NCBI GenBank assembly: GCA_945907755.1
Contig: CAMDTN010000010.1
Coordinates: forward strand, 1 to 61,656
Origin: Singulisphaera sp. GP187
Lineage (GTDB): Bacteria; Planctomycetota; GCA-002687715
Length of the DNA: 61,656 nucleotides
Direction of reading: 5' to 3'
Under the pieces are notes generated by a model. That model saw only the letters and a list, made by a program, of their open reading frames with translations, had not been told where the DNA came from and made no database searches. Below, piece after piece: positions 44,872-47,534 of the stretch (its first letter is position 1; every line of letters begins with the position of its first letter). The position numbers and the translations under genes are program-made.

Positions 44872-44902
44872 ACTTCGCGCAGTGGAAAGCGCTCACTTGA
44901 AC
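44854..44902. repeat. Imperfect 20-bp direct repeat at convergent gene ends
   Basis: tggaaagcgctcaggtgaac at 44854 and tggaaagcgctcacttgaac at 44883 agree in 18 of 20 bases. The first copy ends the zinc-ribbon gene and the second spans the stop of the convergent sigma gene. It may reflect a small duplication. Confidence 0.7.
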
Positions 44903-45528
44903 CAGGACATCTCGCGCAAGATCTCGTGCAAGCGTTGCTGCGCGCGGTGGTACAGCACATTCACCGCGTTGGCATTGGTGCCCAAGGCCTCTGCAGTTTC
45001 GCGCGCGGAGCGCTCTTCGATCTGACGCAACTGGATCACTTGGCGGAAGTGCGCAGGCAACCGTGTCAGCGCACGCTCCAACATCTGATAGCCCTCGCGC
45101 TGCATCACAATTTGTGAAGGTGATGCGTCGTGGCCTTCCACCATGTCGCCGATGGCTGGGCCATTCTCGGTGGAATCCGGCGGCTTTTGATTCAAAGACA
45201 AAACGCCAGCGGTCTGGCGCTTGGCGGTTTTGAAGTAGTACTTGTCGAAGTCCTTGATCTTCCAGCCGATGACGGTGATGACCCATTTGTAGAACGAATC
45301 AGGGTCGCGGTACTCGAACTTGTGAAAGTTGCGGTACACCTCGAAGTAGATCTCCTGCACGATGTCGTCAGCCTCCACCTGGGCCTTCAACTTCTCCAAC
45401 ATGTGCAGTTTCACCAGCAGTTTGATGCGCGGGTAGTAACGCATGAACAACAAGTTGAATGCGGACTCATCGCCGCCATGAATGCGTTTGACGAGCTGCT
45501 GTGTGTTGGTTTGATCGTGGTCGGTCAT
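44893..45528 (-). CDS. ECF-type RNA polymerase sigma factor
   Basis: A 211-residue sigma-70 family protein. Region 2 is LFMRYYPRIKLLVKL to ADDIVQEIYFEVYRNF with FYKWVITVIGWKIKDFD. Region 4 includes LPAHFRQVIQLRQIEERSARETAEALGTNANAVN in parts, and RAQQRLHEIL. No anti-sigma gene follows directly. It sits between the zinc-ribbon gene (convergent) and dsbD (same strand, upstream). Confidence 0.9.
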   Translation of the reverse strand: MTDHDQTNTQQLVKRIHGGDESAFNLLFMRYYPRIKLLVKLHMLEKLKAQVEADDIVQEIYFEVYRNFHKFEYRDPDSFYKWVITVIGWKIKDFDKYYFKTAKRQTAGVLSLNQKPPDSTENGPAIGDMVEGHDASPSQIVMQREGYQMLERALTRLPAHFRQVIQLRQIEERSARETAEALGTNANAVNVLYHRAQQRLHEILREMSWFK

Positions 45529-45578: not shown

Positions 45579-47534
45579 TCACTTTGCTTGGGCGTAAGCG
45601 GCCAAGGCGCGCTCCAGTTCCACGACGAAGGTGGCCGGATCGGTCACGAACTGCAGTTTGTACCCAAATTTTGCCAGCACGGTGCCGTCCCGCGGGTCAA
45701 CCACCACATAGGCCGGCAACTGGCGGCTGCCCACCAATTCCTGCTGCAACTGCGCTGTGCGCGCCTTCAGCTCATCGTTCCGTTCGTCGGCGTACAACGC
45801 CACTTGCACCAATCTGCCAAATGCCGCGCGGACCCGCGCGTCTTTGAAGGTGGATTCCTCCACGCTTCGGCAGTTGGATCATCCATAGCCTGTGAAGTCA
45901 ATGAACAACGGAACTTTCAGTTCCTTCGCGCGCGCAAGCGCCCCGTCGTAGTCGTTCTTGAAGTGCAGCGCGCTGACACGCGGCGGCCCATGATTCATCG
46001 GGCCCGATTGAGCCACCTCTTCCGTCTCCGGCGGCAAGTAGGTGGCGATGCTCCAGTCGATGGGCCCGCCGAGCAATCCACGCAATAGATAGAAGCTGAG
46101 GATCAGCAACAACATGCTGAACATCAGCCCCAACACGGGAGTGCGTTCTCTTGGTGAGTCATGCGGCAGGCGGAAGACCCCCAGCAAGTACAGCGCCATC
46201 AAAAACCCGCAGGCCACCCATGCGCACAGCACAACGGAGCGCGTGAACACGCCCCAGCCGAGCACGGCATCGCCCGCGCCAAGAAACTTGAACGCCGCCA
46301 TCACTTCCACGAAACCCATGCACACTTTGATTTCGTTCAGCCAGCCGCCAGATTTGGGCAGGGCTTTGAGGCGCGCAGGGAACACAGACAAGAAAAAGAA
46401 CGGCACGGCCAACACGCTGGAAAACACAATCATGCCCAAGAGCGGGCGGGTCCATTCGCCGCTGGTAGAAGCCGTTGCGAGGATCGTGGCCACAAATGGT
46501 GCAGTGCAAGTGAAGGTGGTCACTGCAAAGAGCATGCCCAGCATCCAAATACCCAGCGCACCGCCACGGCCACGAGCGCTGCCAGCAAGATTCGTGAGCG
46601 CCGCAGGCAATTGCAGTTCGAACATGCCGAACAAAGCCAGCGCGAAGAAGATGAACAGTGCGCCGATGCCAAGTTGCGTGGCCCAGTGCAGCGCGAAATC
46701 GCTGGCGCCACTTTCGCCCAGCGCCACTGTGAACAGTGCGCCGATGGCGGTGAAAGACACCACGATGCCCAGCGCGTAAACAGCCCCAAGCCCCACTGCA
46801 GAACCGTTGCTCTTCTCGGCTTGTTTGGTGAACACCGAAATGGTGATGGGAATCATGGGAAACACGCAGGGTGTCAGCAGCGCAACCAAAGCCGCCAATG
46901 CCGCCTGCAGCAAGAACTCCCACAGCGGGCCAGCCGCGTTGGGGTCTGCGGTGGTGCTCGTCGCACTGCCGGCCACGCTCGAAGGCGCAACCGCAATGTT
47001 CGTCGGCGGCGCCACCACGGGCGGCGCCACCACCGTGTCCACATTCACTGCGGCAGCGGCACTTGCCTCAACTAACACCTTGCCCGTGAGTTGGAGGTCT
47101 GCAGGCGGCAAACAAAACTCATCCGTGCAAGCCATGAAGCTCATCACCAAGGCGATGTTCTGTTCGCCAGCCGCATTCAGCCGCAACGGAACACTGAATG
47201 CGATAGTGCCATCGAAGTAGTCGTAGGTGTTGTGCGGGTCTTCGTGGTGCTTCGGTGCCCGCGCAGATTTCGCGGCTCCAGCTATCTCAAAACCCGTCGC
47301 GTTGGCGGCCAACGCAAATGTGGTGGGCGTTTCGTAAGCCAGCGCTTTCAGCCCATAGATGTGATAGAGCTTGTCAATGACGACGGTGACGACCGCTTCA
47401 ACAGTTGCGCCTTGCGCCGCCTTCTCCGGCAGCTTGAAGGACTGAATGCTGACGGGCTGTTCTTCGCCAAACTGCGCGGGCAGTTGCACTGCAATGCCAA
47501 GCAAGAGAAAAAGGGACACAACAATTTTCATCAT
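45579..47534 (-). CDS. dsbD: Thiol:disulfide interchange protein DsbD, predicted selenoprotein (Sec552)
   Basis: A 651-residue reading if one internal TGA (45879-45881) is read through. Parts in order: signal peptide (MKIVVSLFLLLGIAVQLPAQ); a periplasmic alpha domain with ACTDEFCLPP; eight hydrophobic segments with the two redox cysteines in LLTPCVFPMIPIT and TTFTCTAPFV; and a C-terminal thioredoxin domain. The last reads FIDFTGYG-U-SNCRSVEESTF, with the cis-proline later in LPAYVVVDP. The TGA falls exactly where the family has the first cysteine of CxxC. DsbD carries electrons from cytoplasmic thioredoxin to the periplasm, and Sec would replace the N-terminal active-site Cys. The two open pieces are in the same frame with no other interruption. 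A candidate SECIS hairpin follows. A nonsense mutation or sequencing error is the alternative. Confidence 0.8.
45846..45868 (-). promoter_or_regulatory. Candidate bacterial SECIS element in dsbD
   Basis: Ten nucleotides after the in-frame UGA the mRNA can form GAAG-C-GUGGA-GGAA-UCCAC-CUUC. This makes 9 pairs, one bulged C and a GGAA loop. The loop begins 20 nt after the UGA and starts with G, which fits the published features of bacterial SECIS elements (loop 16-37 nt from UGA, G among the first loop bases). Confidence 0.65.

Follow-up and report, generated by a model that had tools for sequence, protein, structure and literature searches.

A planctomycete dsbD gene with an in-frame TGA at its gamma-domain active site is very probably a selenoprotein gene

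Does the TGA that interrupts the dsbD gene of this planctomycete contig end the protein, mark a damaged or misread gene, or encode selenocysteine? The window, by which we mean the whole stretch of 61,656 nucleotides analysed, is contig C10 of a planctomycete assembly (G000) of 2.68 Mb that is 97% complete. The dsbD gene occupies 45579..47534 on the minus strand, with 652 codons running from an ATG start at 47534 to a terminal TGA at 45581..45579. Translated from this ATG with table 11, the open reading frame ends after 551 amino acids at the TGA at 45881..45879. The read-through frame contains only this one internal TGA, codon 552, in the local sequence FIDFTGYG-U-SNCRSVEESTF, where it forms the first residue of a UxxC motif. 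The initial annotation had described a single in-frame TGA in an otherwise complete dsbD, predicted as selenocysteine; the description was confirmed, and in our view the gene very probably encodes a genuine selenoprotein. Immediately downstream of dsbD, and likewise on the minus strand, is a gene for an ECF sigma factor (44893-45528).

The read-through protein scored above the Pfam cut-offs for three domains, all encoded on the minus strand: DsbD_N (alpha; residues 36-145, 47100..47429) with ACTDEFC, the membrane domain DsbD_TM (beta; residues 207-415, 46290..46916) with LLTPCVFP and TTFTCTAP, and the DsbD gamma-like Thioredoxin_7 (residues 526-614, 45693..45959), within which codon 552 (45879..45881) lies. 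One chain thus combines the domain set by which we judged a DsbD (Pfam): alpha, a membrane beta and a thioredoxin-like gamma domain. The redox cysteines in the three motifs and the cis-proline stretch, RQLPAY, are intact, as had been described from the letters. The initial annotation had also placed a cysteine of DsbD proteins at exactly this point, and in the solved relative PDB 3f9u, FTGYGC-VNCR aligns to FTGYGU-SNCR; Sec552 therefore corresponds to the leading cysteine of the CxxC in the gamma domain. When the TGAs of the window with 50 open codons on either side were compared (n = 162), the dsbD TGA had the best codon-usage score of all on each side. A window-wide scan found no second TGA with coding flanks and a redox motif.

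To see what relatives carry at this codon, we searched the protein against 99, then 392 Planctomycetota genomes and retrieved the regions, with residue 552 readable in 141 genomes. As had been predicted, column 552 held only TGA (97 of 141) or Cys (TGC or TGT, 44 of 141), a sample picked by similarity to the DsbD query, so that 97/141 is not a phylum-wide fraction and 97/392 is a lower bound for TGA dsbD among the sampled genomes. Cysteine at the matching position of homologues, a criterion for a bacterial selenoprotein, was thus found, and the second cysteine of the UxxC or CxxC was kept in 143 of 143 domains. The nearest relatives, G001 (79% protein identity) and G002 (64%; F1-140-MAGs146, SXUL01000018), both retain the TGA and have no second disruption. 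Between G000 and G001, we found dN 0.157 and dS 1.32 upstream of the TGA (dN/dS ~0.12), and dN 0.129 and dS 1.14 downstream (dN/dS ~0.11). Purifying selection is as strong after the TGA as before it, in agreement with the earlier view that the gene looks functional.

These results bear directly on the reading of the locus as a pseudogene, or as a sequencing or assembly error that converted a Cys codon to TGA. Such a conversion requires only one substitution in TGC or TGT, and the window comes from a draft metagenome assembly. Yet the identical TGA occupies the same codon in 96 other planctomycete genomes, the 99 codons past it are under selection matching that before it, and dsbD shows no other disruption. 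Independent assemblies, with the protein identities given above, contain the TGA too, so it is not a sequencing error. We rule out this explanation on the shared TGA and the dN/dS after it, and consider it very improbable.

The genome was also searched for the means to insert selenocysteine, and selA, selB, selD and tRNA-Sec, the machinery expected for a bacterial selenoprotein, were all found. With NCBIfam models, scored on the matched stretch, SelB reached 324.6 bits (cut-off 242); SelA reached 498 bits (cut-off 268). SelD gave 242 bits for its first part at a contig end, with the remainder on another contig. The tRNA-Sec (78 bits) has the anticodon TCA (UCA) and adjoins selA on contig C67. 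The two genes share a strand, the tRNA gene following selA after a gap of 69 bases (G000:C67:7864-9364). Further selenoproteins of the host genome were sampled family by family. An in-frame TGA lies at the catalytic site of SelD itself, GGG-U-ASKI (L010, G000:C26), and four AhpC-TSA-family proteins have one active-site TGA each: a peroxiredoxin with TPT-U-SVE (L166, G000:C6:36528-36905) and three TlpA-like proteins with FW-U-GPC (L167 on C38, L170 on C22 and L171 on C28). From the machinery, the SelD TGA and the four AhpC-TSA TGAs, it follows that the organism uses selenocysteine and that its candidate selenoproteins number at least six.

The candidate SECIS hairpin of the initial annotation was recovered just downstream of the TGA. 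The 34 nt after the codon fold into a single hairpin of -12.0 kcal/mol (z -2.5 against shuffles), GAAG-c-GUGGA[GGAA]UCCAC-CUUC, at 45846..45868 on the minus strand. Its stem has 5 bp plus 4 bp, and its apical GGAA loop (45855..45858) lies 20 nt after the TGA; loop and distance satisfy the published bacterial SECIS rules (PMC13188914). Both genus relatives have the same stem and loop, within a block of identical nucleotides, despite a gene-wide dS above 1. In the TGA genes, the 48 nt after codon 552 folded more stably than synonymous-codon shuffles (mean z -1.22, n = 97), and to a greater degree than in the Cys genes (mean z -0.39, n = 44), with p = 1.9e-5, a value that is optimistic given the relatedness of the genomes. 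A simple search found a hairpin obeying the G rule in 69% of TGA genes versus 50% of Cys genes. No Rfam SECIS family matched around dsbD; bacterial SECIS elements have little sequence in common.

Could the TGA nevertheless be a true stop? The product would then be 551 residues long, without the gamma active site, and the rest might be a separate protein or the result of low-level read-through; in E. coli, some termination at a selenocysteine UGA is usual, which counts in favour of this reading. A true stop would be expected to drift to TAA or TAG, but neither was seen at column 552 in the 141 genomes. The UxxC is conserved with no codon other than TGA or Cys, the cysteine after the TGA is kept, and the hairpin and complete machinery likewise speak against termination. 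We therefore reject a true stop as highly unlikely. A changed genetic code, with TGA read as another amino acid such as Trp, is the least plausible explanation of all and is rejected, for although in-frame TGAs occur in several genes of the host genome, dsbD itself still terminates at TGA, the in-frame TGAs examined sit at selenocysteine sites of known selenoprotein families and not at Trp or Gly positions, and the genome has the selenocysteine machinery.

The interpretation that we consider very probable is that of a functional dsbD whose in-frame UGA would be read as selenocysteine. We infer that UGA 552 is decoded by SelA, SelB, SelD and tRNA-Sec, with the SECIS hairpin just downstream assisting. 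Sec552 would then stand in place of the first CxxC cysteine of the C-terminal (gamma) thioredoxin domain. The matching residue of E. coli DsbD is Cys461, the exposed nucleophile that relays from the membrane domain to the alpha domain. By analogy with that protein, the electrons of cytoplasmic thioredoxin would first reach the membrane (beta) domain, from there gamma, and finally alpha and periplasmic substrates. A selenenylsulfide between Sec552 and Cys555 would replace the disulfide in this relay.

To explore how the two forms are distributed, we built a FastTree tree of the 141 sequences with column 552 masked, from which the direction of the Sec/Cys changes cannot be read. It required 11 changes between Sec and Cys, of which at least six are imposed by well supported branches, versus ~38 with shuffled labels; the state is therefore inherited, yet has switched repeatedly. 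Tandem thioredoxin domains, each with a UxxC and its own TGA (EYUTAC and PAUKDC), were observed in DsbD-like genes of one planctomycete family, f24 (L096, L097 and L122). We found selA in 92 of 97 TGA genomes versus 35 of 44 Cys genomes (Fisher p = 0.012), an association on which we do not rely; it is weak because most genomes with Cys-DsbD also use selenocysteine and because the genomes are related. The five TGA genomes without a strong selA match are all draft assemblies, three of them at 67-87% completeness, and the missing gene is likely explained by incomplete assembly. The TGA dsbD genes concerned are L038 (G069), L164 (G279), L116 (G211), L136 (G213) and L111 (G263).

Taken broadly, we regard the chances as evenly balanced that DsbD in a large part of Planctomycetota commonly carries selenocysteine, that the main periplasmic reducing route there depends on selenium, that Sec and Cys have replaced one another many times, and that some lineages possess a tandem pair of Sec gamma domains. 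In many planctomycete genomes, standard annotation would end DsbD prematurely, at the active site. The data suggest that the thiol-reducing route of the planctomycete periplasm is often selenium-dependent. What advantage Sec has over Cys in a membrane-crossing thiol relay could be examined in these proteins, whose numerous related versions with one or the other residue form a natural test set.

We take cd02953 to be the DsbD-gamma class. Selenocysteine in the UxxC of thiol:disulfide interchange proteins is already catalogued: a predicted selenoprotein family of that name and motif was listed in 2006 (PMC1794560), Table 1 of PMC13188914 gives it as PF13098 with UxxC, and a marine survey of 2008 lists 22 UxxC sequences of "Trx-like 2 (Thiol disulfide interchange protein)", cd02953 (PMC2398784). 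The present protein resembles this family in its thioredoxin fold and in having Sec as the first UxxC residue. It differs in that the listed examples come from Deltaproteobacteria and marine metagenome reads, whereas ours is from Planctomycetota, and in being a full alpha-beta-gamma DsbD, full length not being stated for the listed examples. PF13098 matched it at E 2.6e-4 and 21.7 bits, below the cut-off of 27, and PF13899 is the better model. Selenoproteins of two planctomycetes were reported in a 2016 paper (PMC4807772). In the literature searched, we found no description of full-length Sec-DsbD or its spread in Planctomycetota, nor of tandem Sec domains in one family together with repeated Sec/Cys exchange; the distribution of Sec-DsbD in the phylum appears undescribed in those sources.

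NCBIfam holds no model for a Sec DsbD. TsoB (NF045694), a rhodanese/DsbD fusion-like selenoprotein, has a DsbD-like membrane domain in common with our protein (133 bits over residues 204-420, against a cut-off of 805), but is listed with UxxxxU and two Sec, while the present DsbD has one Sec in UxxC and no UxxxxU, and does not belong to that family. The Trx7/PDZ selenoprotein (NF041199) has the same Thioredoxin_7 type of domain but is listed as CxxU, and its match to the present DsbD is slight (E 0.086, 11.7 bits versus a cut-off of 300). Against the curated DsbD model NF001419 the protein scored 146.6 bits, below the cut-off of 330, and by sequence it is classed as a divergent DsbD outside that subfamily. 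With DsbD (NF001419, PRK00293; E. coli DsbD) it nevertheless shares the three-domain layout and the redox cysteine pairs, the difference being that selenocysteine is predicted to replace the first gamma cysteine.
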